Shown piece by piece: positions 1 through 22,801 of a stretch of DNA of 63,828 bases. The notes under the pieces were generated by a model. It searched no databases and was not told the DNA's origin. It was given only the letters and a program-made list of their open reading frames with translations. The translations under genes and the position numbers were made by a program. Each line of letters begins with the position of its first letter. Positions within the stretch are counted from its first letter, which is position 1. This DNA is from Nitrospira sp. (GTDB taxonomy: Bacteria > Nitrospirota > Nitrospiria > Nitrospirales > Nitrospiraceae), in NCBI GenBank assembly GCA_016788465.1, contig JAEURV010000137.1, positions 1 through 63,828 of the forward strand, given 5' to 3'.

Positions 1-2905
1 TGCCGTTCACGGCTGTCTCCACTGAGTACGGCAGGTTTTTCAGGAAGAGGATGACAAGGTCTCGATTGTCTTCCAAGTCATCGACCAACAAGATTCGAAG
101 CGGGCGAAGATTCGTCCCAGCTTGTGAAGGAGCCTGTTCCACATGGAGCGTAGCCAGAGCTGACTGTCCCCTGATCGTGTCTCGGGCCGTGACGAGTAAG
201 CCTGCTCGCGAAACCGGTTTGATGATCTGATGCGTGATGCCGAGGTCTTGAATGAGCGTGCGGTCGGAGGGCTCTGTATACGAGATGAGGAGCAGAACAG
301 GAAGATCCTTCCCGGTCGGCATGGTCCGCACCGTCTTCACCAGTTCGAGACCATCCATGTCAGGCATGCGACGATCCACAATCATGAGCTGCACCGGTTG
401 ATTGTCGGCCTGGGCGGTCAGGAGATGGGTCACTGCGAGCGGGCCTGAAGAGACGTCGCTGACCAGTGCACCGGCTTCCGACATGATTTCACGAATGACG
501 AGGCGTGTTGGCTGGTGATCGTCCACGATGAGAATGCGCTTCCCCTTCAGGGCAAGGAGATCCTGCTTCGTCGTCAGAGTCTCAAGCGACACAGTGGGTA
601 AGGGAACCGTGAAGACAAAGGTAGAACCGGTTCCAGGAGTACTCGTCACGGAGATGTCGCCGTCCATCAGCTCCACGAGCCGTTTACAGATGCTGAGGCC
701 GAGCCCCGTGCCGCCGTATTTTCGCGTCGTGGAGCTATCGGCTTGGGAAAAGCTGTCAAATATGGAACCGAGTTTCTCCGCTGGGATGCCGATACCGGTA
801 TCCGAGACGGAAAACTGGAACCGGCCGGACTCGGTCGGTTCCACCTGAACCAGGATCTGACCTGTTTCCGTGAATTTGATTGCGTTGCCTACCAGATTTA
901 CCAGTATCTGGCGAAGCCTTGTTGGATCGCCAGAGACCACCTCCGGGAGACCTGGGCAGACCCGTACGACGTAGTCAATCTGCTTGGCATGGGCGCGCAA
1001 GGCCATCATTTCGCCGACGTTCTCCATGAGATTGCGTAGGTCGATGGGGATCGTTTCCAGCTCCAAATGTCCCGATTCAATTTTTGAGAGATCGAGGATG
1101 TCGTTGATCAAATCCAGCAAGTGATCACTGGCTCGCCTGAGACGTTGTGTGTAGTCCTGTTGTTCGGGGGTGAGCGGTGTTTCGCCGAGCAGCTGTGCCA
1201 TGCCGACGATTGAGTTCATCGGCGTTCGGATTTCATGGCTCATGGAGGCCAGGAAGGCGCTCTTCGCTTCGGTGGCCTGCCGCACTTCTTCGTTCGCCAT
1301 TTCCAGCTCGAGGTTGATACATTCCATTTGGATGGTTGCTTGCTCAAGTTGGGTGGCGGCTGCTGCACGTTCGGTGATATCGCGCAGAATGCCGGTAAAG
1401 AGACGGCCGCCCTGCAAGTGAAGCTCGCTGACGGCCAATTCAAGGGGAAAGGTGGATCCGTTTTTCCGAAGACCGGTCACCTCGCGTCCGATTCCGATAA
1501 TTTTGCGCTGTCCGCTTGCGCGGTAGTTCTCGAGGTATCCATCGTGTTCAGACTGGTAAGGCTCAGGCATGAGAATCTTGACGTTTTGCCCGATGGCCTC
1601 AGCTGCTGTATAGCCGAACATGCGCTCGGCTGCCGCGTTGAACGATTCAATGATACCGCGCTCGTTGATTGTGACGATGCCGTCTACCGCATGGGTAACG
1701 ATTGCATGCAGGCGCGCCTCCTGTTCGTGCCGCGCGATCTCCGATTCTTTCTGCGCTGTTACGTCTGTCGCGAGCTTGATGACTTTATAAGGCTTCCCAC
1801 TGGTATTGACGATTGGTTTATAAGAGGCTTGGATCCAGATCCCCTTGCCGTGCTTGGTGACTCGATGGAAAGTGCCAGCCGCAAATTCGCCTCGACGGAG
1901 CTTCTCCCAAAATGCTGTAAAGTCATCACTCTCACCGTACGCCTGATCGCACAGTAGACGATGGTGCTGGCCCACAACCTCCCCCTTGTCATATCCAGTC
2001 AATGAGAGGAAGTGCTCGTTAGCGTCGAGGATCGTGCCGTCGAGGCTGAATTCGACGACGGCATAGGTCTTGTCGATTGCTTCCATCGCATGTTTGGACT
2101 CAATGACCTCTTCGATGCTGGCGGCAATCTTGTCGGCCATTTTGTTGAAACTCTTTGCCAGCAGTCCAATGTCGTCCTGGGTATCAATACTAGACCGGGT
2201 GCCAAGATTCCCGTCTCCAATCGATTCAGCAGCCTGCAGAATATTCGTGAGTCCTTTTGAAATGCTGCGGGAAATGCTCCAACCAAGTAGAAGACCACAT
2301 CCTAATCCTCCAAGCATGAGTCCGAGCGCGATATGAGTGAGCTGTGCAGCCAACTTCGTACTGGCCTTGTACTGTTCCAGAGCGTGATCTTTCTTAATTT
2401 CGATGAGTTGTTGGATGCTGTTTGTCAGTGTGACAAGCTCCTGTGCCCCCTGCTCGCGCTGGAGTTCGGCCGAAGCATCTTTGCTATAGAGCCGACTCAG
2501 GTGGAGAATCTTTTTCCGGGTGTTATGGAACGTCTTCAATTGTCCGGCCAGTTTGGCAGAAACTTCTCGCTCCACGTCAGATAGCGAGTCGTTCTCGTAT
2601 GTGGCAACCAATCTTTGGAGTGTCTCATCGATTTGTGCAATGACTTCTTCCTGTTTGTCCATCGCGGCGGTTCCATAGGTCAGAATGTGCCAAGCGACGG
2701 CAGTGTGCATTTTAAGCGATTGTGTACGGAGGTCATACAGCCGATCATAAGAAAGCAGATGGTCTTGATAGAGGGTTTCGGCACGATTGTGGATCTGGTT
2801 GATACTTCGGATGGCAATGATACCCATCGCCACCAACAGGAGTTGCATGAGGGAAAAGGCGATGATCAGTTTTGTAAAGGTCGATTGATCTCTAAAACGC
2901 TTCAT
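1..2905 (-). CDS. Hybrid sensor histidine kinase/response regulator, C-terminus cut by window edge
   Basis: A membrane-bound hybrid kinase, 968 residues visible and no stop before position 1. In order: a first membrane helix (about 10-32), a helical sensor segment, a second membrane helix (about 190-212), HAMP (about 213-263), two PAS domains (about 268-390 and 395-510), HisKA with the phospho-acceptor motif SHEIRTPMN (His about 557), an HATPase domain (NLVGNAIKFTETG, DTGIGIP, GGTGLGLSI), a first receiver (IVDDHQPTR, Asp about 843 in IVDRRMPDMDG) and a second receiver that begins LRILLVDDLEDNR (about 934) and is cut. The ATG at 2905-2903 overlaps the TGA of the upstream kinase (ATGA), so the two are probably translationally coupled. 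It likely passes phosphate through its own receivers. The signal is unknown. Confidence 0.9.
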   Translation of the reverse strand, partial: MKRFRDQSTFTKLIIAFSLMQLLLVAMGIIAIRSINQIHNRAETLYQDHLLSYDRLYDLRTQSLKMHTAVAWHILTYGTAAMDKQEEVIAQIDETLQRLVATYENDSLSDVEREVSAKLAGQLKTFHNTRKKILHLSRLYSKDASAELQREQGAQELVTLTNSIQQLIEIKKDHALEQYKASTKLAAQLTHIALGLMLGGLGCGLLLGWSISRSISKGLTNILQAAESIGDGNLGTRSSIDTQDDIGLLAKSFNKMADKIAASIEEVIESKHAMEAIDKTYAVVEFSLDGTILDANEHFLSLTGYDKGEVVGQHHRLLCDQAYGESDDFTAFWEKLRRGEFAAGTFHRVTKHGKGIWIQASYKPIVNTSGKPYKVIKLATDVTAQKESEIARHEQEARLHAIVTHAVDGIVTINERGIIESFNAAAERMFGYTAAEAIGQNVKILMPEPYQSEHDGYLENYRASGQRKIIGIGREVTGLRKNGSTFPLELAVSELHLQGGRLFTGILRDITERAAAATQLEQATIQMECINLELEMANEEVRQATEAKSAFLASMSHEIRTPMNSIVGMAQLLGETPLTPEQQDYTQRLRRASDHLLDLINDILDLSKIESGHLELETIPIDLRNLMENVGEMMALRAHAKQIDYVVRVCPGLPEVVSGDPTRLRQILVNLVGNAIKFTETGQILVQVEPTESGRFQFSVSDTGIGIPAEKLGSIFDSFSQADSSTTRKYGGTGLGLSICKRLVELMDGDISVTSTPGTGSTFVFTVPLPTVSLETLTTKQDLLALKGKRILIVDDHQPTRLVIREIMSEAGALVSDVSSGPLAVTHLLTAQADNQPVQLMIVDRRMPDMDGLELVKTVRTMPTGKDLPVLLLISYTEPSDRTLIQDLGITHQIIKPVSRAGLLVTARDTIRGQSALATLHVEQAPSQAGTNLRPLRILLVDDLEDNRDLVILFLKNLPYSVETAVNG

Positions 2906-5900
2906 AGTTGTTCCGATCTCAGAAATCCGTCTGTCAATGACGCGGACGGGTCGAAATCTCCAGTGAGATTCGAGACTGGGTGAGCCGTCTGTGGCATGAC
3001 ATAATCCTGGATTGCTTGAATGAGAGCCTGTTTTCTAATTGGCTTGGTGAGATGTGCCGTGCAGCCGGCATCCAGGCTTTTCTTCGCCTCTTCCTTGAGC
3101 GCATGGGCGGTCAGCGCAAGAATTGGGGTGGGTGTATGGTGGTGCGCCCGTTCCCACTGACGAATCGTGCTCGTAGCCTGAAGTCCGTCCATGATTGGCA
3201 TTTGCATATCCATGAGCACAAGGTCGTATCTGCCTGTCTGAAACTTCTCGACGGCGATCTGGCCATTTTCTGCCGTCTCGATAACATGGACGCTGTTTTT
3301 GAGGTAGTGCGCCACAATCGCGCGATTATCTTCGAGATCGTCGACGACCAAAATTCTGAGCGGTGGTGCTGAGGGTCTAGTAGGTGGCTCGGTTTCTCGT
3401 TGAACGTGACCATTTGATCGCGAAGTTACTGTCTCGTTGGCGTTTGGCAAACGGAGAGTGAATTCAAACGTCGAGCCCACTCCCGGCGTGCTGGTCACTG
3501 CGAGATGGCCGTTCATCATGTTGACGAGGTGTTGGGAGATGGACAGCCCAAGGCCTGTGCCGCCGAACTTCCGCGTCGTGGTCGTATCCCCCTGCGTGAA
3601 GCTGTCAAAGATGAATGGGAGCTTGTCCGATGGAATGCCGATGCCGGTGTCCGAGACCGCAAATCGCATGCGGTCATCAGCGATCACCTCGACCGTCACC
3701 ACGACCTGTCCCTGCTCCGTGAACTTGATGGCATTCCCAACAAGATTCATCAGCACTTGTCGCAGGCGTGTCGGATCGCCGATGACGGTGGAAGGGACAT
3801 CGGGCTGTACGTGCATATCCAGCGTGAGCTGCTTGCTCTCGGCACTCACTGCCAGCAGATCGCGTACTGTAGCCATCAGCTCACGGGGGTTGAAGGGGAT
3901 CTGTTCCAACTGCAACTCGCCGGCTTCGATCTTCGAAAGGTCCAGGATGGCGTTGAGTAAGTCCATGAGATGGTCGGCGGCTCGGCTGAAGCGTTGGATA
4001 TAGTCTATCTGCTCCGGACTGAGGGAGGTCTCACGGAGCAACTCGGCCATCCCGATGATGGCGTTCAACGGTGTGCGGATCTCATGGCTCATGGAGGCCA
4101 GGAAGATGCTCTTGGCTTCGGTGGCTGCCAGGGCCTGTGTATGCGCGACGCTGAGGGCCTGGTTCTGTTGCTCCATGGTTTGTGCCGCCTGTTCCAGCTC
4201 TCTGGCAATCGCGTTGCGCTCCGTGATATCGACATGGGTACCGACCATGCGCAAGGGTTCCCCGTTCGGCGTTCGAACGATCATGGCTCGGGACAAGATG
4301 TCGACCCAATGGCCGTCCTTGTGGCGCATCTGGAATTCGGTCTTAAACCCATTGCTCTTTCCGCAGAGACAGTCATGGATGAGGGCCATGGTCCAGACCC
4401 GGTCGTCTTCGTCCACCAGTCGCTCCCAGGTGGAAAAACTATTCTCAAGTTCGTGGTCCGCGTACCCGAGCATTGCTTTCCATTGCGGCGAGAAGTACGT
4501 GACCTGAGTCTGGATGTTCCAATCCCACAGACCGTCCGAGGCGGCCTGCATGGCTAAGGCAAAGCGCTCCTCCGACCTGCGTAACCGCGTTTCTGTGGCA
4601 CGCTGCTCAGAGATATCTTCGTATATTCCAAGTACACCAATGACCTGGTTGGTTTGGTCTTTAAGCGGAACCTTCGACGTCCGTAACCAGGCGGTGTGGC
4701 CAGACGAAGTGGTTTGTGGCTCTTCAAAAGCGATCCGCGATCTCTCAGATGCGATGATTTTCGCGTCGTCAGATCGATATTGCTCAGCCTCATTTGACCA
4801 AACGAGGTCATAGTCGGTCTTGCCCAACAGCTCGCTGGGATCGCTCTTTCCTGCATCCCGTGCGAAGGCGGCGTTACAGCCAAGGTACCGTGATAACCGA
4901 TCTTTCCAGAACACGCGCACGGGGACAGTGTTGAGAACGGTTTGCAAGAGATCGCTTTTCAAGGCCAGCTGTTGGGTGCGCTCGTCGACTTGAGTCCGTA
5001 TCTGGTTCGTGGTGCCGGTGATCAGCAGCAACACGGCGCCCAGGAGGCCATCACTCAAGAGGCCTACGAGCAGCAGGCTCCAGCGTTGCCAGCTGGGAGA
5101 TGAGGCGAGGAGTGCTGTGGATGGACTGATGAATAGCCGATAATGCCTTCCCCCGAATTGCAGGTTGCGTGTGAATACCGGCGGTCGAGTCGACGATGGG
5201 AGCGTCCCGTAGATGATCGTACCCCGCTCGGTGTCCTGAAGGCTGACCGACATCTTGTCCCTCGCAGGGAGTAACATCCCAATGAATTCCTCTGTGCGTA
5301 GAACGGTCAGGACGAAGCCCGGGGCATTGGCGCCGGTTTGAATCCGTCGGATCAAGAGAATTCCTTGTTGTGTCTCTTGCTCCTGGACCAGCGTCACAGG
5401 CTCGGTGGCAATGGAGCCCTTGACCTCTCGCGCCCGTAGGATTGCCGCATGGCGGGCAGGGTTCGAGCTCAGGTCAAAGCCAAGGGCTTTCCGGTTGCCG
5501 TGGAGCGGCTCGATATAGGTGACAGGGTAATAGATGGGACGGTCCTGCGCGGGTACCATGGCACCTGCCTCATTACGCTGGGTGATCACGAACTCCGGAA
5601 CCGACTGTTTCTGGGCCGATTCGAATCTTGTGCGTCGGTCTGATGGAATCTCCGGCACCCACTCGATTGCCTGCAGCATGGGAAAACGACTCAAAGTGGG
5701 CTGCGCAAGGGCTCCAAAGGCTTCACGATTGACTAGTTCGCGTTGAGACATGGATAAGGCTACATCCAGTTGCTGAAGGGTGAACTCCTGTTCGTTAAAA
5801 TGATCCTGAATCGTCTTCGCTAGGCGGTCGGCTTGGAAGTGAAAGCTCTGCGCCATCTTCTCCGATTCGATCTGCGTGTATCCGACATAGGCCAGTATGA

Positions 5901-6699
5901 TCAGTACGAGGATCGCAGACAGAATGGACGCGACTACGACACGGCGTTCCTTCCACCGCGAGTCGGGAGTGCCGAAGAGCGCCAGCATGATCGGAAAGAC
6001 CGACACCATGCCCAATGTGTCGCCGAGTCCCCATGTCATCCATTCTGTGAGAGTTTGGTCGGACGGAACGACGCTCAGCATACCTAGGCTGGCCATGGAC
6101 AGTGATGCGCCGACGAGGCAGATGAACGGAGCGGCTAAGAGATATCCGCCGATGTGCTCGATGGTCTCAAGACCCGTTTGAGGTCCGATAGTTCGATGTA
6201 ACACAGCTCGCCCGATCCATGCCTGTAGGGCAGAGGCCAAGGCGATACAGAAGGGAGCCATAGCGGATGAAATCTGTAGGGGAGCGGTCGAGACCGAGAA
6301 GTTGAGTGTGAATGAGCCCAGCACGATCCACGGAAGCGTCGGGGATCCCCAGAGATAAGTCGCGGCGATGGCCAGGCCGGCAGGTGGAAAGATGCCTGAG
6401 GCGTACCCCGGCTGGATGGCCAGCATGAGCCCGAGTTTGCCCAGGACGATATAGGTTGCGGCCAGTACCACACCGGAGCTGATACCGAATGATGGTGTCG
6501 CCTGTTCGTTCATGGGGGGATCGTTTGGTCGATCCGCAACTCCGGCCAGCGGGGCTTGTACTCCGGGCTCATAGGCCAGACATTCTCGCGACACACAATA
6601 GGGATCGGGAAGGCCCGGCATAACGCAGATTCCAAGGGTTTGGGTTCTCACTGCGATGTGAACAAGAATTTCTCCTCTTGTCGGAGGATTTTCGGCCAT
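2902..6699 (-). CDS. MASE1-CHASE-PAS hybrid sensor histidine kinase/response regulator
   Basis: A 1265-residue hybrid kinase. The N-terminal third is a MASE1-type set of membrane helices (about 70-330), followed by a CHASE-like periplasmic sensor (about 340-540), a last membrane helix (about 555-575), two PAS/PAC domains, HisKA with SHEIRTPLN (His about 872), HATPase (NLVGNAIKFTEQG, DTGIGIP, GGTGLGLSIS) and one C-terminal receiver (VVDDLEDNR, Asp about 1164 in LMDMQMPIMDG, Lys in LTKPI). The start is uncertain. The first 62 residues do not look like MASE1, and an in-frame ATG at 6513 (MNEQATPS) directly before the first membrane helix may be the real start; neither site has a strong Shine-Dalgarno. 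Its stop overlaps the next kinase start by ATGA. Kinase and receiver are closely related in sequence to those of its neighbour, which suggests duplication with exchange of the sensor part. Confidence 0.9.
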   Translation of the reverse strand: MAENPPTRGEILVHIAVRTQTLGICVMPGLPDPYCVSRECLAYEPGVQAPLAGVADRPNDPPMNEQATPSFGISSGVVLAATYIVLGKLGLMLAIQPGYASGIFPPAGLAIAATYLWGSPTLPWIVLGSFTLNFSVSTAPLQISSAMAPFCIALASALQAWIGRAVLHRTIGPQTGLETIEHIGGYLLAAPFICLVGASLSMASLGMLSVVPSDQTLTEWMTWGLGDTLGMVSVFPIMLALFGTPDSRWKERRVVVASILSAILVLIILAYVGYTQIESEKMAQSFHFQADRLAKTIQDHFNEQEFTLQQLDVALSMSQRELVNREAFGALAQPTLSRFPMLQAIEWVPEIPSDRRTRFESAQKQSVPEFVITQRNEAGAMVPAQDRPIYYPVTYIEPLHGNRKALGFDLSSNPARHAAILRAREVKGSIATEPVTLVQEQETQQGILLIRRIQTGANAPGFVLTVLRTEEFIGMLLPARDKMSVSLQDTERGTIIYGTLPSSTRPPVFTRNLQFGGRHYRLFISPSTALLASSPSWQRWSLLLVGLLSDGLLGAVLLLITGTTNQIRTQVDERTQQLALKSDLLQTVLNTVPVRVFWKDRLSRYLGCNAAFARDAGKSDPSELLGKTDYDLVWSNEAEQYRSDDAKIIASERSRIAFEEPQTTSSGHTAWLRTSKVPLKDQTNQVIGVLGIYEDISEQRATETRLRRSEERFALAMQAASDGLWDWNIQTQVTYFSPQWKAMLGYADHELENSFSTWERLVDEDDRVWTMALIHDCLCGKSNGFKTEFQMRHKDGHWVDILSRAMIVRTPNGEPLRMVGTHVDITERNAIARELEQAAQTMEQQNQALSVAHTQALAATEAKSIFLASMSHEIRTPLNAIIGMAELLRETSLSPEQIDYIQRFSRAADHLMDLLNAILDLSKIEAGELQLEQIPFNPRELMATVRDLLAVSAESKQLTLDMHVQPDVPSTVIGDPTRLRQVLMNLVGNAIKFTEQGQVVVTVEVIADDRMRFAVSDTGIGIPSDKLPFIFDSFTQGDTTTTRKFGGTGLGLSISQHLVNMMNGHLAVTSTPGVGSTFEFTLRLPNANETVTSRSNGHVQRETEPPTRPSAPPLRILVVDDLEDNRAIVAHYLKNSVHVIETAENGQIAVEKFQTGRYDLVLMDMQMPIMDGLQATSTIRQWERAHHHTPTPILALTAHALKEEAKKSLDAGCTAHLTKPIRKQALIQAIQDYVMPQTAHPVSNLTGDFDPSASLTDGFLRSEQL

Positions 6700-6793
6700 T
6701 CTTGAGTCGATGCGGGGCCTAACATCGCGAAATTGCTCCAGTCAGCTCCGGTCAGCTCCAGTCAAGCATCCTGTCAAGAATCGATAGCAACCG

Positions 6794-6801
6794 ACCGATA
6801 A
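6794..6801 (+). promoter_or_regulatory. Possible sigma-28 (FliA-type) -10 box upstream of cheR
   Basis: ACCGATAA matches seven of eight bases of the flagellar sigma-28 -10 box GCCGATAA. A weak TCAAGAAT lies 12 bases upstream (6774-6781) where the -35 box TAAAGTTT would be. Chemotaxis genes often use this sigma factor, but the -35 match is poor, so this is only a candidate. Confidence 0.2.
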
Positions 6802-6863
6802 AGCCAAGACTTTACAGTAGTGGGTAGGAACTTGGCGCGTCGCATTCACCCAGTGGAGTAACT

Positions 6864-7682
6864 ATGGATTATGGGATTACCTCCGACGAGTTTCTCCGTT
6901 TCCGTAAGTTGATTTATGACGAAAGCGGAATCTCACTCGGCGATCAAAAGCAAACACTGTTGGCGTCTCGGCTATCCAAACGATTGCGCGATCTCGGGCT
7001 GACAACCTTCACGGAATATTATGAGCAGGTCACGGGGGATACGACCAAGGAAGAGTTCACCCGGATGTTGGACCTGATCTCGACCAACAAGACCGACTTT
7101 TTCAGAGAACCCAAGCACTTCGACTACCTGCGTGAGCGGATTCTTCCTGAGTTGGAGAAGGAGAAACGCATTCGTATTTGGTCTTCTGCTTGCTCGACCG
7201 GCGAAGAACCCTACACGATTGCCATGACGCTCTACGAAGGTGTCTCTGATCCTCAACGGTGGGACTTCAAAATTCTAGCGTCCGATCTGTCGACCCGCGT
7301 ATTGGCGAAGGCGGCGTCGGGTCTGTATGAGGCAGAGCGAGTGCGGGATATGTCGCCGGAGCTTGTGAAACGGCATTTCCTGCGTGGGCGCGGCGAGAGT
7401 GAGGGACTGTTGAAGATCAAGCCGCACCTGGCATCGATGATCCAGTTCCGACGATTGAATCTCATGGATGATCGATTTCCGATTAAGAGCCCGTTGGACC
7501 TCATTTTCTGCCGGAATGTCATGATCTATTTCGATCGCCCCACTCAGGAGCAGCTTGTCAACAAGTTCTATCGATATCTGAAGCCGGGGGGGCATCTGTT
7601 CATCGGGCATTCCGAGAGCCTGCAGTGGGTCGAGCATCCCTTCAAGGTGATGGGCCCCACCATCTATCGGAAGGAGAAGTGA
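6864..7682 (+). CDS. cheR: CheR, chemoreceptor glutamate O-methyltransferase
   Basis: Transfers methyl groups from S-adenosylmethionine to glutamates of chemoreceptors in the cytoplasm, setting adaptation. The 272-residue length is normal for the family. The N-terminal helical CheR_N domain covers about 8-60, the family motif NKTDFFRE is at 75-82, the SAM-binding SACSTGEEPYTIA is at 108-120, and LDLIFCRNVMIYF is at 211-223. A GGAG five bases before the ATG supports the start. It is first in a plus-strand run with cheD and cheB, so the whole receptor modification set is local, but cheA, cheW, cheY and receptors are not in the window. It has no CheY-like or TPR fusion. Confidence 0.96.
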   Translation: MDYGITSDEFLRFRKLIYDESGISLGDQKQTLLASRLSKRLRDLGLTTFTEYYEQVTGDTTKEEFTRMLDLISTNKTDFFREPKHFDYLRERILPELEKEKRIRIWSSACSTGEEPYTIAMTLYEGVSDPQRWDFKILASDLSTRVLAKAASGLYEAERVRDMSPELVKRHFLRGRGESEGLLKIKPHLASMIQFRRLNLMDDRFPIKSPLDLIFCRNVMIYFDRPTQEQLVNKFYRYLKPGGHLFIGHSESLQWVEHPFKVMGPTIYRKEK

Positions 7683-7690
7683 CGCGTCAT

Positions 7691-7769
7691 GTTTCACCTT
7701 TCAGGTTTCAAGTTTCAGGTTTCACGTTTCAAGTTTTCCGACAACGTGAAACTTTAAACCTGAAACTCG
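7691..7769. repeat. GTTTCA-type inverted-repeat element, copy A
   Basis: A fold-back built from short units such as GTTTCAAGTTTCAGG on the left and GAAACTTTAAACCTGAAAC on the right. The centre GTTTTCCGACAAC (7733-7745) is nearly palindromic. It fills the gap between cheR and the four-helix-bundle gene. The arms could form a long imperfect hairpin in RNA. Copies B to F lie at 8190, 8840, 10108, 13106 and 16249. Confidence 0.8.
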
Positions 7770-7790
7770 ATACATGATGGACCTACTGCG

Positions 7791-8183
7791 ATGTCGACGT
7801 TCCAGAGGTTTGAGGATATCGAGGCGTGGCGGCAGGCTAGAGTTCTATGTGCGGAGATCTATCGAGTCTCAGGTAGAGAAGCTTTCGCAAATGATTTCGC
7901 ACTTCGGGATCAGATTCGAAGGTCAAGCGCATCAATCATGTCGAATATTGCCGAGGGATTTGAGCGCAGCGGCACCGTTGAATTTATGCAATTTCTGGCA
8001 ATCGCGAAGGGGTCGGCCGGTGAAGTGCGAAGCCAGCTCTATATCGCTCTTGATCAAGGGTATGTTGAACAAGAAAACTGCGTCCGGCTTGTCGGGTTAG
8101 CCTTTGATACGGCAAAAATGATTGCAGGGCTTATGAAGTATTTGCGCAAGTCAGGAGTGAAGGGCACAAAGTACAAACCTTAG
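7791..8183 (+). CDS. Four-helix bundle protein (23S rRNA intervening-sequence family)
   Basis: A 130-residue protein of the small four-helix-bundle family first known from intervening sequences in 23S rRNA genes and related to the Avd accessory proteins of retroelements. Family marks are FEDIEAWRQAR near the N-terminus, LRDQIRRSSASIMSNIAEGF at about 43-62 and the pattern EFMQFLAIAKGSAGEVRSQL at about 68-87. The biochemical role of stand-alone copies is not established. Here it sits between cheR and cheD in the same direction, with a GTTTCA-type repeat on each side (7691-7769 and 8190-8232). That placement suggests it arrived as a small cargo unit and is not a chemotaxis component. The Shine-Dalgarno is weak. 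Confidence 0.85.
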   Translation: MSTFQRFEDIEAWRQARVLCAEIYRVSGREAFANDFALRDQIRRSSASIMSNIAEGFERSGTVEFMQFLAIAKGSAGEVRSQLYIALDQGYVEQENCVRLVGLAFDTAKMIAGLMKYLRKSGVKGTKYKP

Positions 8184-8189
8184 TCATCC

Positions 8190-8232
8190 GAGGGATTCAA
8201 ACCTGGAACTTGAAACATGAATCTTGAAACTG
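8190..8232. repeat. GTTTCA-type repeat, copy B, running into the cheD start
   Basis: Units of GGAACTTGAAAC and ATCTTGAAACTGG close to the right arms of copies A and C. Only one arm orientation is present. The repeat covers the ribosome-binding region of cheD and, if the ATG at 8217 is used, its first six codons. Confidence 0.65.
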
Positions 8233-8831
8233 GACATCAACAATTCGCGCATATCCGGCGGATGCGGGATAGCCGGTTTCCCCATGAGATTGCGGCGATT
8301 TTGCCTGGTGAGTTCTTCGTCAGCGCGACTCCCATGATCGTCTATACCGTGCTCGGGTCCTGTATCTCCGCCTGTATCCGTGACCCTCTCACGGGGGTGG
8401 GCGGTATGAATCACTTTATGTTGCCGAAGCCAAAAGATGGAGGAAACGACTCGTGGGGTGAATCGACTCGCTATGGTTCCTATGCGATGGAATCATTGAT
8501 CAATGAAATCTTGAAGTTGGGTGGTATGAAGAGCCGGCTGGAAGTGAAGTTGTTTGGGGCTGGGAAAATCTACGAAGGCAACATTGACGTCGGGGCTCGC
8601 AACGCCGAATGGGTGCTCAACTTTCTCAAGACGGAGGGACTCACGGCGGTGAAAACGGATTTGGGAGACGTCTGCCCGCGCAAGGTCTATTATTTTACGG
8701 ACTCCGGTCGTGTGCTCCTGAAGAAGATCGAGCGGTTAAAGAATAAGACCATTCTTGAGCGTGAGAACGAGTACGCCACCAAGATCCAAACGGTCGAGAA
8801 GCCGGTGGAGGAAGACGTGACGCTCTTCTGA
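8217..8831 (+). CDS. cheD: CheD, chemoreceptor glutamine deamidase
   Basis: Deamidates selected receptor glutamines to glutamate so that CheR can methylate them. It works in the cytoplasm and in some bacteria binds CheC. 204 residues. The catalytic region reads YTVLGSCISACIRDP, with nucleophile Cys49, nearby Thr44 and general base His66 in GGMNHFMLP, in the family spacing. The C-terminal third (YYFTDSGRVLLKKIERLKNK and after) is a charged tail seen in longer CheD proteins. The start is uncertain: the ATG at 8217 lies inside repeat copy B, so MNLETG is repeat-encoded, and an in-frame ATG at 8262 would give a protein starting just before the conserved FPHEIAAILPGEFF. No cheC is nearby. Confidence 0.94.
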   Translation: MNLETGHQQFAHIRRMRDSRFPHEIAAILPGEFFVSATPMIVYTVLGSCISACIRDPLTGVGGMNHFMLPKPKDGGNDSWGESTRYGSYAMESLINEILKLGGMKSRLEVKLFGAGKIYEGNIDVGARNAEWVLNFLKTEGLTAVKTDLGDVCPRKVYYFTDSGRVLLKKIERLKNKTILERENEYATKIQTVEKPVEEDVTLF

Positions 8832-8839
8832 ATGGGAGA

Positions 8840-8916
8840 GTTCCAAGTTTCAGGTGTCATGTTTCATGTTGTCCGACAACCAGAAACTTGAAACGAGAAA
8901 CCTGAAACTCCAAACG
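8840..8916. repeat. GTTTCA-type inverted-repeat element, copy C
   Basis: Left arm TTCCAAGTTTCAGG and GTTTCATG, right arm CAGAAACTTGAAAC and GAAACCTGAAACTCC. The centre GTTGTCCGACAAC (8868-8880) is a perfect palindrome around one C. It fills the cheD-cheB gap and is the best-preserved copy. Its core is almost the same as that of copy A, so the copies share descent and are not chance low-complexity sequence. Confidence 0.8.
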
Positions 8917-8927
8917 TAGGGGTGTTC

Positions 8928-9983
8928 ATGAAAAAGATCCGCGTCCTTAATGTGGATGATTCGGCGTTGATGCGCCAGGTGCTGGCATCGTTGCTCGCGA
9001 AGGATCCGGAGATCGAAGTCATCGGTTCGGCGCCTGATCCGTACGTGGCTCGTGAAAAGATCAAGACGTTGAATCCCGATGTGATCACTCTTGATGTCGA
9101 AATGCCGAGGATGGACGGCATCACATTTCTCGAAAAACTTATGCGTGGGCATCCGATGCCGGTCGTGATGGTGAGCTCCCTTACCGAAGCAGGGTGCCAG
9201 ACGACACTTCGCGCTCTGGAGCTCGGGGCGGTCGATTTTATTACCAAGCCGAAGATCGACCTCCGTGAAGGAATGGATGAAGTCGCGCAGGATCTGATCG
9301 CAAAGGTCAAGGCTGCCGCCTGTGCGAAGGTGAAGCCTGATGCGGTAGGCGCCAAGCGTGAAGTGAAACCCCTTCTGTCAGGCAGCGCCATGATCAAGAC
9401 GACCGATACGATCATTGCCATCGGGTCCTCTACTGGAGGGACGGAAGCCGTCAAAGACGTCTTGGAGGTGCTTCCTCCCAATACGCCGCCGATCTTGATC
9501 ACCCAACACATGCCTGAACGGTTTACGAAGACCTGGGCTGATCGGATGAACGGGCTCTGTCGGATCTCCGTCAAAGAGGCGGAAGATGGGGACAGTGTGT
9601 TGCCGGGACATGCCCTGGTCGCTCCCGGCGGGTATCATATGGCGTTGGAACGGAGCGGTGCTCGGTATACGGTCCGCATCAATCAGGATCCTCCGGTCAA
9701 TCGTCATCGGCCATCGGTGGACGTGCTGTTTGCCTCCGTGGCGCGGTATGCCGGCGCCAATGCCGTCGGGGTTATTTTGACCGGGATGGGGGGAGACGGG
9801 GCCAAGGAATTATTGACGATGAAGCAGGCTGGTGCATTCACGATCGCTCAAGATGAGGCGAGCTGTGTCGTGTTCGGCATGCCGAAAGAGGCGATCAAGC
9901 TCGGAGGGGTGGATAAGGTGCTCCCGCTCCAGGACATTGCGGGCGCCATCCTGGGGCATGTGGGCTACTCCAAAGCCGCGTGA
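8928..9983 (+). CDS. cheB: CheB, chemoreceptor methylesterase/glutamine deamidase response regulator
   Basis: Removes methyl groups from receptors when phosphorylated by CheA. 351 residues from the chosen ATG. The receiver domain covers about 1-120 with acidic residues Asp10-Asp11, phospho-acceptor Asp56 ([11 protein letters not shown]) and Lys108 (TKPK). The C-terminal esterase has the triad Ser168 in AIGSSTGG, His194 in TQHMPERF and Asp290 in LTGMGGDGA. An in-frame GTG two codons upstream (8922) is possible, but AGGGG at 8918-8922 fits the ATG at 8928 better. The third member of the local receptor-modification set, after cheR and cheD. Confidence 0.96.
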
Positions 9984-9999
9984 CAAAATGTGAGGTAAA

Positions 10000-10088
10000 G
10001 TGTGAAGCGAGACTCGCGAGGATAGAACATCGTGCCGTCACGCTTTTCTCGCCGGTCTCGCGTGGAAAGATCACCAATCACTTCACAC
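10000..10088. repeat. Inverted-repeat element with GTGTGAAG ends
   Basis: Perfect eight-base ends GTGTGAAG (10000-10007) and CTTCACAC (10081-10088) with inner complementary CGAGAC and GTCTCG segments. It lies in the 172-base gap between cheB and the STAS gene and resembles the CGTGAAGCG family seen at 10525 more than the GTTTCA family. It could be a transcript hairpin separating the two gene groups. Confidence 0.6.
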
Positions 10089-10107
10089 AGAGTAGATAGA
10101 ACGAGGA

Positions 10108-10132
10108 CAACCTGAAACCTGGAACTCTGAAT
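10108..10132. repeat. GTTTCA-type repeat, short copy D
   Basis: ACCTGAAACCTGGAACTCTG matches the right arm of copies A to C. It lies 14 bases before the strong GGAGG of the STAS gene. Only one arm is present. Confidence 0.5.
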
Positions 10133-10155
10133 CGGATCTAACAAAGGAGGTTGTG

Positions 10156-10506
10156 ATGGCGATGCAGACGAAAGAGCGCCCTGTCGCCAATGGCGTGGTG
10201 CTCGATTTGGCCGGAGATCTCACCTATGCCAATCGTGAGCAGTTCAAGACGGCGGTGGAGGCGATTCGGCAGAAAGGCTGTCGGCACTTGATTCTGAACA
10301 TGGCCGAGGTTCGGTTCGTCGATAGTTCCGGGCTTGGTCTACTGGCGCTGGTGTCTCAGAATTTCAAGCTCAGCCAAGCCAAAGTCAGCATGTTGAAACC
10401 TCAAAGTTATGTGCGGGAAATCATGAGCTTGGCCAATATCCAGAAGCTGATCCCGGTGTACGACAATGAACAAGATGCCTTGGCCGGACAGCAGAAGGCG
10501 GCCTAA
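10156..10506 (+). CDS. STAS-domain anti-sigma factor antagonist (SpoIIAA/RsbV-like)
   Basis: A 116-residue single STAS domain. It is expected to bind an RsbW-type kinase when unphosphorylated and to be released when phosphorylated on a serine in DSSGLG (56-61). The fold signature is complete: LDLAGDLTYANREQF, HLILNMAEVRFVDSSGLGLL and a C-terminal helix. GGAGG at 10146-10150 fits the ATG at 10156; a GTG one codon upstream is the alternative. The following phosphatase, Hpt and REC-ATPase genes supply the natural partners. No sigma factor is in the window, so the final target is unknown. Confidence 0.9.
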   Translation: MAMQTKERPVANGVVLDLAGDLTYANREQFKTAVEAIRQKGCRHLILNMAEVRFVDSSGLGLLALVSQNFKLSQAKVSMLKPQSYVREIMSLANIQKLIPVYDNEQDALAGQQKAA

Positions 10507-10524
10507 ATATGAGACGTTCAAAGG

Positions 10525-10663
10525 CCGTGAAGCGTGATGCGTGAAGCGCCGGGAAATGATGGGAATGGTGAAATGTCGGAATCCGGAACACGAGATGCTT
10601 CACGAGAGACGCTTCACGAACCACGCCTAACGAGAGACGCTTCACGAACGACGCTTGACGCAC
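10525..10663. repeat. CGTGAAGCG-type inverted-repeat element overlapping a gene start
   Basis: Left arm units CGTGAAGCGTGATGCGTGAA at 10526-10545, right arm units GATGCTTCACGAGAGACGCT, then GACGCTTCACGAACGACGCT, ending near 10663. The right arm is translated as the first 40 or so residues of the REC-PP2C phosphatase (RDASRETLHEP and RDASRTTLDAP are two repeat units in protein form). Confidence 0.75.
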
Positions 10664-11844
10664 CCGTGGCGGGCCAAACCGTGCTTGTCATCGACGACGA
10701 GCCGACGGCGCGAGTCGCGTTGGTGGCTCGACTCAAACGTCTCGGGTATCGAGTTTTGCAGGCCGACAACGGCAAAGCCGGATTGGACATACTTCGGTAC
10801 GAGCGTCCGGATCTGACGATCTTGGATTGGATGATGCCAGAGATGGACGGCCCGTCGTTCTGTGAAGTGGTTCGTCAAGACCCCGCCCTCCTGTCGAGTC
10901 AGATTCTCATGATGACGAGCAACGATCAGCCTGAGCAGATTGCGGAGGGGTTGGCCCGCGGGGCCGATGATTTTCTCAGCAAAGCCGCCAGTAAGTACGA
11001 AATCACGGCTCGTGTACAAGCCGGGATTCGTGCGGCGGCCCTGATCAGACGTCTCGAAGATGTCACGGCAGAAATTCGTCGAAAACAGGAGGCGCTCGAA
11101 CGCGAACTGCAGTCCGCTGCGCGGTACGTCGAGTCGCTGCTGCCCGCTTCGGGGAACATCGCCCCAGGAGTGCGGATGGTGTGTCTCTATCGACCGTCAC
11201 TCGGGTTAGGCGGAGATCTCTTCAATGTTGTTCCATGGAGTGACGATTTGCTGGGGCTGTATCTGCTTGATGCCTCCGGTCACGGGGTCTCACCGGCGTT
11301 GCGATCCGCCTCCTTTGCGACGTTTCTTCGCCGAGAGAGCTTGCTACGGCATGTCGGGTCGAGCGATCCCGGGGCGGTCCTGACCGAGGCCAACAAGCAT
11401 TTTCCACTCACGGAGAACGGGCACTATTTCACGATTGTGTTTGCGACGCTCGATGTTCGTTGTCATACGCTGTCGTATGCGACGGCGGGACATAGCGGGG
11501 CGTTTCTTCACCGCCATTCCGGGGAAGTCTGTCGGATGGCGAGGCCGAATCTCCCGTTGGGATTCGATCCTTCGACGGTGTACGGTACCGAGGTGCTTTC
11601 AGTGGAGCCGGGTGATCGTCTCTATGTGTTGAGTGACGGTCTTTATGAGGTGCCTGACTCCACAGGCAATCTGTGGGGGCAGGATCGTTTGGAGCAGCTC
11701 ATTCGAACGCTCGGCCATCGACCTCTGACGGAGGTGTTATCCGGTGCGGTCACCGAGGCGGTTCGATGGCTGGGACATGAGCAATTCCCCGATGATGTCG
11801 CGGTCATGGCATTGGAATTGACCGAGGCCGATACGCATGCGTGA
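10534..11844 (+). CDS. Receiver-PP2C serine phosphatase (RsbU-like)
   Basis: 436 residues. Receiver domain at about 48-165 (VIDDEPTAR, phospho-acceptor Asp98 in LDWMMPEMDG, Lys150), a helical linker, then a PP2C/SpoIIE-type phosphatase at about 212-430 with metal-binding GGDLF (226-230), DASGHG (246-251) and FPDDVAVMALE near the end. Phosphorylation of the receiver should control dephosphorylation of the upstream STAS protein. The first 44 residues are encoded by a CGTGAAGCG-type repeat and are unlikely to be part of the fold; the ATG at 10573 is another possible start. The 3-prime end overlaps the Hpt gene by eight bases. Confidence 0.9.
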   Translation: MMREAPGNDGNGEMSESGTRDASRETLHEPRLTRDASRTTLDAPVAGQTVLVIDDEPTARVALVARLKRLGYRVLQADNGKAGLDILRYERPDLTILDWMMPEMDGPSFCEVVRQDPALLSSQILMMTSNDQPEQIAEGLARGADDFLSKAASKYEITARVQAGIRAAALIRRLEDVTAEIRRKQEALERELQSAARYVESLLPASGNIAPGVRMVCLYRPSLGLGGDLFNVVPWSDDLLGLYLLDASGHGVSPALRSASFATFLRRESLLRHVGSSDPGAVLTEANKHFPLTENGHYFTIVFATLDVRCHTLSYATAGHSGAFLHRHSGEVCRMARPNLPLGFDPSTVYGTEVLSVEPGDRLYVLSDGLYEVPDSTGNLWGQDRLEQLIRTLGHRPLTEVLSGAVTEAVRWLGHEQFPDDVAVMALELTEADTHA

Positions 11845-12208
11845 TCAGGTAAATCACGAGTCTGTCTTCGACTTTGAAGAGGCGCTTGCTCGCGTCGATC
11901 AGGACCGGGAGACGTTCGTGATGATGATCGAGCTGTTTCTGGAACATGGGCCAAAAGATTTGGCTCAAGCACAGGCGGCCCTGACCGCCGGGGACGCCGT
12001 CGGTGTGGCGCGATCCAGTCATCGGCTGAAGGGCGCGATCTTACAGTTTTGTGCTCCGGCTGCTCTTGACGCCTGCAAAGCATTGGAAGAGGCTGCGAAA
12101 TCCGGAGACTTGACCCATAGCAGGGAACTCTATGCCAGGTTGGAGCAGGAGTTCCATCGCTTGCTTGCCGCCCTCCGTCCGATTCTCGACCAAGGAATGG
12201 CCGCATGA
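11837..12208 (+). CDS. Hpt phosphotransfer protein
   Basis: A 123-residue four-helix histidine phosphotransfer protein with the phospho-accepting His62 in SSHRLKGA and the usual helical pattern before and after it. It would carry phosphate between hybrid-kinase receivers and the receivers of the two neighbouring proteins. It overlaps the upstream phosphatase gene by eight bases and the downstream gene by four (ATGA), so all three are likely co-translated. The two hybrid kinases at 1-6.7 kb are possible donors; this is inference from proximity. Confidence 0.9.
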   Translation: MRDQVNHESVFDFEEALARVDQDRETFVMMIELFLEHGPKDLAQAQAALTAGDAVGVARSSHRLKGAILQFCAPAALDACKALEEAAKSGDLTHSRELYARLEQEFHRLLAALRPILDQGMAA

Positions 12209-13104
12209 ACATGTCGTTGCCCCCCGAGTGCATTTTGATTGTCGATCCCTGTCCAGATACCCGATCTCGTATCACGCACTTTGTGCAGGGAAAAGGGTTT
12301 TCGGTCATGGCTGTGCCCGACCCTCCCGCTGCAATGGCCAAGATTGAGACGGCGGTTCCCGATATCGTAATCACGGATTTGTTTCTTCCCGCTGGGGCCG
12401 GGTTAGCGTTGGTGAAAGAGCTCAAGGCCCGGCAGGAACCCTGCCCGGTGATCATCATGGGAGAGAATGCGTCGGAACGGCTGATCGTCGACGCACTGCG
12501 TGCCGGAGCCATCGACTACCTCCACAAGCCTGTGGTTCAAGACGAACTCGTTTCCGTGTTGCAGCATGCGCAGGACTTCTTGCCTTGTAACCCTTTGGAT
12601 GTCGCAGGGACTCGACAATTTGACTATACCCTGACCATTGATTCGGATCCCGCGTGCATCCCCAGCGTCATTTCATGGCTCCTCAGGATGACGGCGTCTT
12701 CGTTACCACCGGCCCAGAGAATCCATATTCAGGGTGCGCTGCAAGAATTGCTCTTCAATGCCGTTGAACATGGGAATCTCGAGATTCAGGATCAGGAAAA
12801 ACAAGAGGCGTTGGCCAACGGGTGTTATGATCAGCTGTTGGCTCAACGATTGGCGCAGGTTCGGTTCAGGGATCGGCAGGTGAGGATCCGTGTGTTTTAT
12901 GAGCGGAGTGACGATTGTCTGGAGTATCGTATCACCGACGAAGGCAAGGGATTTCCATGGCGGGCCGTGCTGATGCGCTCGCAGGATGTACGTGAGTCAG
13001 AGGGTGCGAGCGGCCGGGGGCTGTTTTTGACGAAAGCCTTTTTCCCAAGCCTCACATACAACGATCGGGGGAATGAGGTCACGATCACGGTGCCGATCGC
13101 CTAG
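12205..13104 (+). CDS. Receiver-HATPase protein (RsbW-like anti-sigma/serine kinase)
   Basis: 299 residues. An N-terminal receiver (about 8-125) has phospho-acceptor Asp58 in VITDLFLP and Lys108 in HKPV. The second half is a GHKL ATPase of the RsbW/SpoIIAB type: N-box ELLFNAVEHGN (181-191), G1 box DEGKGF (245-250), G2 box SGRGLFL (269-275). There is no HisKA domain or phospho-accepting histidine, so it is not a sensor kinase. It should phosphorylate or bind the STAS protein at 10.2 kb, with the receiver as input. An insert of about 30 residues (191-222, rich in Gln and Glu) separates the N-box and the next strand. Confidence 0.87.
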   Translation: MNMSLPPECILIVDPCPDTRSRITHFVQGKGFSVMAVPDPPAAMAKIETAVPDIVITDLFLPAGAGLALVKELKARQEPCPVIIMGENASERLIVDALRAGAIDYLHKPVVQDELVSVLQHAQDFLPCNPLDVAGTRQFDYTLTIDSDPACIPSVISWLLRMTASSLPPAQRIHIQGALQELLFNAVEHGNLEIQDQEKQEALANGCYDQLLAQRLAQVRFRDRQVRIRVFYERSDDCLEYRITDEGKGFPWRAVLMRSQDVRESEGASGRGLFLTKAFFPSLTYNDRGNEVTITVPIA

Positions 13105-20971: not shown

Positions 20972-22801
20972 CTAGTCGAGGTCGATTTCCTGTTGAGTAA
21001 TCCGCATGACTTCTTCCAGCGTGGTCTGGCCCTGGACAACTCGCTCCACACCCTCCTGTTTCAAGGTCACCATACCTTTCGCGATCGCCGCCTGTTTGAT
21101 GGCCGTCGAGTCAGCTTTGCTGCCGATGAGTCGTCGAATGTCATCGTCCAGTACCATCAACTCAAAGATCCCGGTCCGCCCGCGATAGCCGGTCTGAGAA
21201 CAGGCGGCACAACCGGCTCCCCGATACAGTGTCATTGCGGAACCAGGCGGCAAGTCGAGACGGCTCAGTTCGTCTTCACTGGCTCGATAGGGGCGTTTGC
21301 AATCAGGACAAATCCGTCTGAGCAACCGTTGGGCCAACACTGCGACCACCGATGAGGCTACGAGAAAGGGCTCAATGCCCATGTCGATGAGGCGTGTGGC
21401 GGCACTCGCAGCGTCATTTGTGTGGAGGGTCGAGAATACTAAGTGGCCGGTGAGTGACGCATGAATGGCGATCTCCGCCGTTTCGCGGTCGCGAATTTCT
21501 CCGATCATGATCACATCGGGATCCTGACGAAGAATCGACCGTAGCCCGGCGGCGAACGTCAGATTGATTTTCGGGTTGACCTGCATTTGCCCGATGCCGA
21601 GCAGCTGGTATTCGACCGGATCCTCGACGGTGATGATGTTTTTGTCCGGTGAGTTAATGTGGCTCAATGCGGCATAGAGCGTGGTCGTCTTTCCGCTTCC
21701 TGTGGGGCCGGTCACGAGTATGATCCCGTGCGCCAGCTGGATGAGCTGGTGGATGACCGTCAGACGTTCTTTGGAAAATCCCATTTCGGAGAGATTGAGC
21801 AGACGATTCTCTTTTTCCAGCAATCGCAGCACCACTCGCTCACCATGAGAGGTGGGGAGGACTGACACTCGCAGATCGACGTCCTTCCCGGCCGTTCGAA
21901 TGGCGAACCGACCGTCCTGCGGAAGGCGTTTCTCAGCAATGTTCAGGCCGGCCATGATCTTGAGCCGAGCAATAATGCTGGCTTGCAAATGTTTAGGCGG
22001 GGTCAGCACCGGGTAGAGGACGCCGTCGATTCGATAGCGGACGACCAAGCCACGCTCGAACGATTCGAAGTGGACGTCGCTGGCCCGCTGCCGAACCGCC
22101 TGAAACAGGACTGAGTTGACGAGCCGGATGATCGGAGCCTCGTCGGTCGCGTCGAGTAGGTCTTGCGGCTCGTCAAGCTCGTGGGCCAACTGGTCCAAGC
22201 TTTCGTTTGCCGCGATATCCTCCATGACTTCTTCGGCGCCCGCCGGATTCGCAATTTCATCGTAGGCGCGGTTGAGCCTCGCGAGGAGCGCGACGCTCGT
22301 GGTTAAGACCGGTGTGATGGGTTTGCCCAACAGCAAGCGAAGGTCGTCCAGTGCCACGGTTTCCAACGGATCGGTCGAGGCAGTGATGATCGCTCCGTTT
22401 TCGTCTCGCAGCGGTAAGACCCGATATCGCCGGCAAAAGGCGATGGGTACCCTCCTGATCAAGTCGTGGTCGACAGGAGTGGTGTCGAGGTGGGGAATCC
22501 AGGTCATGTCAAACTGCTGGGCCAGTGCTTCCGACACCAGTTCTTCCCGCAGGACCCGTAGGTGTAGCAGCACTTCCCCCAAGCGGCCGCCTTTCTCCTG
22601 CTGGTAGGCGAGGGCCTCCTCAAGCTTCAGCTCTGAGAGATGAAACTTCTCCCGCAGAATGTCTCCAAGGCGTGGCCGCGTCACACTGATAGTGGATTTC
22701 TGGTGCTCGTCTTGTTCAGACACGTGTTCCCTGACATCTTTACCCGTGACCAACGAACTGGGATGGGGTTTAGCTATTGAGTCTCTTACTGCCTCGCACA
22801 A
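20972..22801 (-). CDS. gspE: GspE, type II secretion assembly ATPase
   Basis: 609 residues. N-terminal MshEN-type domains (about 40-180), then the AAA+ secretion ATPase: ASDVHFE (240-246), Walker A GPTGSGKT (365-372), Asp box, Walker B DPDVIMIGEIRD (427-438), His box STLHTNDA, and a zinc-binding tetracysteine CPDC (498-501) with CAAC (531-534). It powers pseudopilus assembly from the cytoplasmic face through GspL and GspF. The first codon is TTG if the full frame is used, with AGGAAGAG upstream; an in-frame GTG at residue 27 is an alternative start. Preceded by a 218-base gap after gspC, where gspD would be in the common order. Confidence 0.95.
   Translation of the reverse strand: MCEAVRDSIAKPHPSSLVTGKDVREHVSEQDEHQKSTISVTRPRLGDILREKFHLSELKLEEALAYQQEKGGRLGEVLLHLRVLREELVSEALAQQFDMTWIPHLDTTPVDHDLIRRVPIAFCRRYRVLPLRDENGAIITASTDPLETVALDDLRLLLGKPITPVLTTSVALLARLNRAYDEIANPAGAEEVMEDIAANESLDQLAHELDEPQDLLDATDEAPIIRLVNSVLFQAVRQRASDVHFESFERGLVVRYRIDGVLYPVLTPPKHLQASIIARLKIMAGLNIAEKRLPQDGRFAIRTAGKDVDLRVSVLPTSHGERVVLRLLEKENRLLNLSEMGFSKERLTVIHQLIQLAHGIILVTGPTGSGKTTTLYAALSHINSPDKNIITVEDPVEYQLLGIGQMQVNPKINLTFAAGLRSILRQDPDVIMIGEIRDRETAEIAIHASLTGHLVFSTLHTNDAASAATRLIDMGIEPFLVASSVVAVLAQRLLRRICPDCKRPYRASEDELSRLDLPPGSAMTLYRGAGCAACSQTGYRGRTGIFELMVLDDDIRRLIGSKADSTAIKQAAIAKGMVTLKQEGVERVVQGQTTLEEVMRITQQEIDLD

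Follow-up and report, generated by a model that had tools for sequence, protein, structure and literature searches.

A set of four genes beside chemotaxis genes in Nitrospira raises the question of how a phosphorelay can act on a partner switch in which the kinase and the phosphatase of one STAS protein both carry a receiver (REC) fold. The set lies in a stretch of 63,828 nucleotides from Nitrospira sp. (assembly GCA_016788465.1, contig JAEURV010000137.1), which was analysed at full length and is called the window. The window is contig C268 of the source genome assembly (3.7 Mb, 380 contigs); L, G and C numbers denote loci, genomes and contigs. The genes encode a STAS protein, a REC-PP2C phosphatase, a stand-alone Hpt phosphotransfer protein and a REC-RsbW-type serine kinase. 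All four are real genes and together they resemble a partner switch. Domains were called by Pfam, well above cut-off, for all four proteins (Table 1). An initial annotation had proposed this set, with a receiver on both enzymes and the Hpt between them, and both points were borne out by the Pfam matches, the first also by coordinates and conserved gene order. From sequence comparison, it is reasonably probable that the set is a partner switch in which only one phosphorelay input is live and enters through the phosphatase, that the STAS kinase is uncoupled from this input, and that sigma-28 and the flagella are the likely output.

Canonical receivers of the CheY type have two acidic residues, an acceptor aspartate, a threonine or serine, and a lysine. 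The phosphatase receiver of the window was found to be canonical (D41 D42 D85 T115 K137, numbered from the ATG at 10573), whereas the kinase receiver is degenerate (D14 P15 D58 G86 K108) and lacks the second of the acidic residues as well as the switch threonine. The ATP-binding motifs of the kinase are intact. The same asymmetry was observed throughout the family. The phosphatase receiver was canonical in 59/59 loci of the genus and 20/20 loci of other genera (79/79), and the kinase receiver in 0/62 and 0/19 (0/81). Left out of these counts were L056, L065, L100 and L101 (additional or broken copies), the phosphatases of L057 and L062, truncated where the contig ends, and that of L090, which is off the contig, as well as the kinase receiver of L223, which is incomplete, and repeat entries for genomes already represented (L001-L030, L119, L122, L124-L136, L138). 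The initial annotation had assumed that the Hpt could feed both receivers, and this was not supported, as none of the kinase receivers read in the family is canonical. Within the genus, 62/62 kinase receivers are without the second acidic residue and 53/62 without the switch threonine or serine; the acidic pair is mostly D-P or D-S, and the threonine mostly alanine or glycine. The losses differ by lineage, mostly DP.A.K in the genus versus AD.TQ in another genus, where the first aspartate and the lysine have been lost. Outside the family, kinase-type receivers were canonical in 60/64 cases, namely 55 of 59 named loci, drawn from the best 80 of the kinase scan, and 5/5 at L066-L070 (L139 belongs to the 59 and was counted once). 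The four exceptions are L148, L154, L187 and L193.

Nine chosen close orthologs were compared by a simple pairwise estimate of the ratio of nonsynonymous to synonymous substitution rates (dN/dS). The phosphatase receiver was the most constrained of the four domains (mean identity 94%, median dN/dS 0.04), followed by the PP2C domain (85%, 0.10) and the kinase domain (81%, 0.13). The kinase receiver was the least constrained (74%, 0.19), but it is nonetheless under purifying selection. An AlphaFold model of the kinase (mean pLDDT 86, pTM 0.67) contained complete REC and kinase folds, and the best PDB match, both by structure and by profile, was LvrC (9qih, where the molecule is named SenB). The residues required of the other parts are well kept. 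The STAS protein has a VDSSG phospho-serine motif, with D57-S58 kept in 97/97 aligned rows, and is the expected substrate of both enzymes. The four PP2C aspartates are kept in 65-66/66 rows, H62, K65 and G66 of the Hpt (His62 in SHRLKGA) in 64/64, and the kinase motif residues E181, N185, H189, D245, G247 and G249 in 79-81/82.

From these data we infer how phosphate would be transferred, how kinase and phosphatase would act, in which direction each step would work and what the output would be. A hybrid histidine kinase without an Hpt of its own, probably the one beside CheR and perhaps others, would pass phosphate to the stand-alone Hpt, which would hand it to the intact receiver of REC-PP2C. 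Phosphorylation of this receiver would switch the phosphatase, and the STAS protein would be dephosphorylated. REC-RsbW would rephosphorylate the STAS protein at a rate independent of the phosphorelay, since its receiver appears to have become a pseudo-receiver, which may be kept for folding, dimerisation or docking. The most likely binding partners of unphosphorylated STAS protein would be the RsbW kinase, the FlgM/FliA (sigma-28) pair, or both, and such binding would tie the chemotaxis locus to flagellar gene expression. Hybrid kinases as the likely input had already been suggested in the initial annotation, and this is supported by two loci outside the genus: a hybrid kinase directly precedes the Hpt in the operon of L223, and at L066 the Hpt is the C-terminal domain of the kinase.

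The kinase was searched for in 116 related genomes. The order CheR-CheD-CheB-STAS(-STAS)-PP2C-Hpt-kinase was complete in 48/62 loci of the genus (G049 counted twice), and the association is therefore not due to chance. Nine of the other 14 loci are cut by a contig end, and five (L044, L083, L086, L087, L094) are without CheR or all of CheR, CheD and CheB alongside. About half of the genus loci have a second STAS gene ahead of the first; the window has a single one. In other genera of the family the STAS, PP2C, Hpt and kinase genes stand together in 20/20 loci, with strong CheR, CheD and CheB matches ahead of them in 11/20; one of the 20, L223, additionally has a hybrid kinase between PP2C and Hpt. 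In all 20 of these loci, as in those read for the genus, the Hpt is located between PP2C and kinase. In the single-contig genome G061, genes for MotB, CheA, CheW and MCP were found upstream on the same strand.

Overlaps join the last three genes of the set, 8 bases between PP2C (end 11844) and Hpt (start 11837) and 4 bases between Hpt (end 12208) and kinase (start 12205), which suggests coupled translation. The STAS gene starts with the ATG at 10156, preceded by AAAGGAGG. A GTG at 10534 is an alternative start of REC-PP2C. The true start of this gene (10534, 10573 or later) is uncertain because a ACGCTTCACGA-type repeat, in four imperfect copies at 14-base steps, covers window positions 10526-10664 at the frame start. 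Within the window ACGCTTCACG occurs three times, all within 10526-10664, against 0.11 occurrences expected.

The closest described system is HptB-HsbR-HsbA of Pseudomonas aeruginosa (PA3345-PA3347). Shared features are a stand-alone Hpt, a REC-PP2C, an RsbW-type kinase domain and a STAS protein (PMC5085249, PMC2904497). HptB interacts with the receiver of PA3346/HsbR, and PA3347/HsbA is the binding partner of the PP2C domain (PMC2904497). Phospho-HptB activates the phosphatase and dephosphorylated HsbA binds FlgM; the genes adjoin cheR- and cheW-like genes and flgM (PMC5085249; PMC6482189). Hybrid sensor kinases feed the system, which lies beside chemotaxis and flagellar genes and has FlgM/FliA as output (PMC5085249, PMC2904497, PMC6482189). 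As in Pseudomonas, the Nitrospira set has a STAS protein with a predicted phosphorylatable serine, and its Hpt is encoded with the STAS and REC-PP2C genes. HsbR, however, is a single protein with a single receiver, joining REC, PP2C and RsbW-type kinase in one polypeptide, whereas the Nitrospira kinase and phosphatase are two proteins, each with a receiver fold, the kinase with a degenerate one of its own. CheD and CheB stand in the Nitrospira run, and no GGDEF gene was found by Pfam among the nine genes 2902-13104. By analogy, the Nitrospira set may well operate like HptB-HsbR-HsbA, with the enzyme split in two and a pseudo-receiver on the kinase.

A REC domain joined to an RsbW-type Bergerat domain, as in the Nitrospira kinase, is also found in LvrC of Leptospira and TciR of Vogesella. 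The LvrC receiver is described as canonical and is phosphorylated by LvrB (PMC13269768), unlike the Nitrospira kinase receivers. The word STAS is absent from the accessible text of the LvrC paper (PMC13269768), and the TciR host is described as having no RsbV homolog (PMC12826045). Nitrospira is named there in a list of taxa with TciR-like proteins, and its authors wrote in 2025 that they knew of no earlier functional characterisation of a REC-RsbW protein (PMC12826045); the LvrC report came in 2026 (PMC13269768). The first functional reports of this architecture are thus very recent (PMC12826045, PMC13269768). The Nitrospira set would be a case provided by nature in which the role of a pseudo-receiver on an RsbW-type kinase can be tested. 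In Vibrio fischeri SypE-SypA, kinase and phosphatase of one STAS protein are likewise under receiver control, but SypE is one three-domain protein with one central receiver, and no Hpt is mentioned in the parts available (PMC12826045, PMC3999984). RbaV-RbaW-RbaY of Rhodobacter and RsbV-RsbW-RsbY of Bacillus cereus likewise consist of a STAS protein, an RsbW kinase and a PP2C, with REC on RbaY; a receiver on RsbW/RbaW or an Hpt in the set is not mentioned for them in the accessible text (PMC3999984). The earlier statement that usual Rsb modules lack an Hpt thus stands for the Bacillus module (PMC3999984) and fails for P. aeruginosa, where HptB is part of the system (PMC2904497, PMC5085249). STAS genes in chemosensory clusters were known earlier (PMC9239204). 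Among the matches listed in searches of open-licence literature, no report was found of this module in Nitrospira, of an Hpt-containing set with split enzymes and two receivers, or of a split HsbR-like system with a kinase pseudo-receiver. This variant is therefore rated new, as it was not found described; a partner switch with an Hpt is in itself already known.

Unlike in Rsb/SigB modules, where the sigma factor is encoded with rsbV-rsbW, no sigma factor was found by Pfam among genes 2902-13104, as the initial annotation had noted; fliA is present in related PP2C/RsbW runs of another family of the order. The annotation had concluded that the output may not be transcription and had advised looking for a sigma factor or cyclase partner. 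A candidate is FliA, whose gene lies at a distance: wherever a full-length kinase and fliA share a contig (23/23 genomes), fliA is located on the same strand, 33-85 kb upstream (G024 treated as circular). No cyclase was found among genes 2902-13104. Among 69 genomes of the genus, the module and FliA were both present in 61, the module only in 3 (G015, G021, G047), FliA only in 1 (G066) and neither in 4 (Fisher p 0.0002, with no kinship correction; G014, G047 and G053, which have partial matches, were scored as positive). In G066, contig C178 ends inside CheB (L120), and the missing module may be an assembly gap. G014 has FliA and no FliG or FlgM match; its phosphatase has an in-frame stop and its kinase match stops after the receiver. 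In the source genome FliA, FlgM and FliG lie on C139, a contig other than that of the window. The output is probably sigma-28 and the flagella. The suggestion of a non-transcriptional output runs counter to the genome context, and G021, discussed below, speaks for it. Nitrospira are nitrite oxidisers with little genetics, and the module would connect sensing, chemotaxis and flagellar gene expression in them in a concrete and testable way.

Possible intermediates in gene order survive in another family of the order. In the first arrangement, CheR-CheD-CheB-STAS is followed by a hybrid kinase and a REC-RsbW with an intact receiver. L066 and L070 have all of CheR, CheD and CheB, whereas L067, L068 and L139 match CheB and CheR more weakly and CheD not at all. 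At L066 an Hpt domain (residues 928-1008) forms the C-terminus of the hybrid kinase, and the corresponding ends of the L067, L068, L070 and L139 hybrid kinases score 63-82 bits against the Hpt profile of the module. In the second arrangement, flhF-flhG-fliA is followed by REC-PP2C in 16 of 21 fliA loci outside the family, and in 12 of the 21 fliA is followed by both REC-PP2C and REC-RsbW. The 21 loci were chosen and not evenly drawn (3 via kinase matches, 18 via a fliA list), and the L230 PP2C is a short frame at a contig end. At L233 a kinase and an Hpt follow fliA. In these runs the kinase receiver was canonical in 12/12 and the phosphatase receiver in 12/15 read. In the source genome, flhF-flhG-fliA has no PP2C or kinase genes behind it (L117). 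In a quick tree the kinase of the family was sister to the CheR-CheD-CheB-linked kinase (SH-aLRT 89). In a PP2C tree its phosphatase grouped with the PP2C that follows fliA outside the family; this tree holds mostly PP2Cs near RsbW homologs, has long branches, and unites the PP2Cs of the family at only 73. The stand-alone Hpts grouped with kinase-borne Hpts (93/82). L223, of another genus of the family, has the order STAS-PP2C-hybrid kinase-separate Hpt-kinase with a degenerate kinase receiver. From these trees and orders we infer that the Hpt would have become detached from a hybrid kinase, that a fliA-type phosphatase would have joined, and that the kinase receiver would then have lost its function. 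The family would thus be a readable case of a phosphorelay input changing its entry point in a partner switch.

Runs of flhF-flhG-fliA-[REC-PP2C]-[REC-RsbW] in this other family were seen at L107:2950-8885 and at L103, L109, L225 and L231-L238. They may represent a sigma-28 partner switch whose sigma factor is encoded within the run itself. L107 additionally has STAS genes, an MCP-like protein and CheY, the latter two named by eye. The search models used to read these and the other loci included some loci of other families of the order (e.g. L102, L103, L107, L109). A general limit of one live receiver per pair was rejected, as both are intact in L103, L109, L164, L197 and L202; both are intact in most fliA-linked pairs too. 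In L193 (Kiloniella) the phosphatase receiver is intact and the kinase receiver degenerate, with the kinase on the opposite strand. The reverse was seen in L182 (a gammaproteobacterial metagenome-assembled genome), where nothing lies between the two genes. Phosphatase receivers without the acidic residues (DT or NN) were also found in fliA-linked L227, L234 and L237 (one genus), and the kinase receivers read at L234 and L237 are canonical, a mirror image of the Nitrospira case.

Several observations weigh against a single input through the phosphatase with a flagellar output. The acceptor aspartate is retained in 78/81 kinase receivers (glutamate in 3) and the lysine in 70/81, so weak or unusual phosphorylation of this receiver is possible. 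Since adjacent enzymes elsewhere both have intact receivers, a set with two live inputs is conceivable in principle. Other Hpt carriers exist in the source genome, which has two more short Hpt-containing frames (C48, C12), and support in the Hpt tree is moderate, with one other kinase Hpt of the source genome inside the same group. No promoter-like site was found in the region, and operon status therefore rests on gene overlaps and conservation. No FlgM match was found in G005, G011 and G020, which are incomplete assemblies, despite the presence of the module, FliA and FliG. G021 has no FliG, no FliA above cut-off and no FlgM match. It has three kinase copies (L056, L065, L119), one by an intact Hpt and PP2C and one by a broken phosphatase; the former set, at the start of contig C16, has an intact Hpt and kinase and a near-complete PP2C. 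As the module persists there without flagellar genes, flagella cannot be the whole output in G021, and a strict one-to-one link between module and flagella was rejected.

The possibility that the output is not sigma-28 deserves consideration, although it is unlikely. The STAS protein would then act on chemotaxis proteins or on a cyclic diguanylate (c-di-GMP) enzyme, as with SiaC and HsbA in Pseudomonas (PMC9239204, PMC5085249). The adjacency of CheR-CheD-CheB in the 48 genus loci would fit, as would the survival of the module in G021. In L182 a GGDEF diguanylate cyclase (L182:9906-11645) directly follows CheR-CheD-CheB-STAS-PP2C-RsbW, with MCP and CheW (named by eye) before the run, which suggests a c-di-GMP output for that branch. 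The window, however, has no cyclase among its nine genes, and fliA-PP2C-RsbW runs occur in another family of the order.

A rather unlikely explanation for the kinase receiver is that it is frozen in an active-like conformation, so that the kinase stays on, or stays a dimer, at all times. Glutamate replaces the acceptor aspartate naturally in L032, L034 and L039, a PhoB D10A/D53E mutant is titled constitutively active in the PDB (2jb9), and the LvrC receiver touches the kinase domain of the partner subunit (PMC13269768). The large majority of members, however, have aspartate and not glutamate. A bolder and improbable reading builds on the path outlined above (Hpt broken off a hybrid kinase, fliA-type REC-PP2C brought in, input moved from kinase to phosphatase): the kinase pseudo-receiver, no longer taking phosphate, would still dock the Hpt. 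The kinase would then be held by the unphosphorylated Hpt and the phosphatase driven by the phosphorylated form, and one carrier would set both enzymes oppositely without phosphorylating both. Two live inputs, with the Hpt phosphorylating both receivers and so setting kinase and phosphatase oppositely, are very improbable and were rejected as the best reading on the residue counts (0/81 versus 79/79), since the persisting aspartate and lysine and the intact pairs of other lineages stand against the missing second acidic residue and switch residue, the three glutamates and the low constraint on the kinase receiver. A phosphorelay acting through the phosphatase is thus the reading preferred here.

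The remaining genes of the run and its surroundings are listed in Table 1. The hybrid histidine kinase, which is divergent from CheR and a candidate input, has no Hpt match of its own in Pfam. It was found divergent upstream of CheR in at least 5/62 genus loci, a lower bound, as the locus stretches extend only a few kb upstream. Of the hybrid kinases of the genome it alone was compared with the one inside the L223 operon, to which it is 40% identical over 555 amino acids.

Table 1. Coordinates of the genes discussed, in window positions, with the matches on which each assignment is based.
Feature	Position	Strand	Evidence or remark
STAS protein, anti-sigma-factor-antagonist type	10156-10506	+	PF01740 E 6e-19; NCBIfam TIGR00377 above cut-off
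REC-PP2C (SpoIIE-type) phosphatase	10573-11844	+	PF00072 E 6.1e-25; PF07228 E 2.8e-36
Stand-alone Hpt phosphotransfer protein	11837-12208	+	PF01627 E 6.2e-13
REC-RsbW-type serine kinase	12205-13104	+	PF00072 E 1.2e-22; PF13581 (HATPase_c_2) E 2.1e-15
CheR methyltransferase, first gene of the conserved run	6864-7682	+	PF01739 E 7e-65
23S-IVP (23S-rRNA-intervening-sequence-type) protein, between CheR and CheD	7791-8183	+	Pfam
CheD deamidase	8217-8831	+	PF03975 E 5.3e-27
CheB methylesterase (REC + CheB domain)	8922-9983	+	PF01339 E 7.8e-67
Hybrid histidine kinase, MASE1-CHASE-PAS-PAS-HisKA-HATPase-REC	2902-6699	-	Pfam
Putative type II secretion genes	from 13172 on	-	T2SSE 20972-22801 by Pfam; others by eye

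The 23S-IVP gene was present in some relatives (e.g. L042, L081, L082) and unmatched in others. A second partner-switching locus was seen in the source genome at L249 (G000:C116), where a STAS gene adjoins a frame of 944 residues with STAS and HATPase_c_2 matches, and with a match to the PP2C model too (L116). Elsewhere in the window, a frame of 1163 residues (60277-63768) combines an N-terminal DUF255/Thioredox_DsbH region with an aldo/keto reductase domain at 687-950, a combination that seems unusual.

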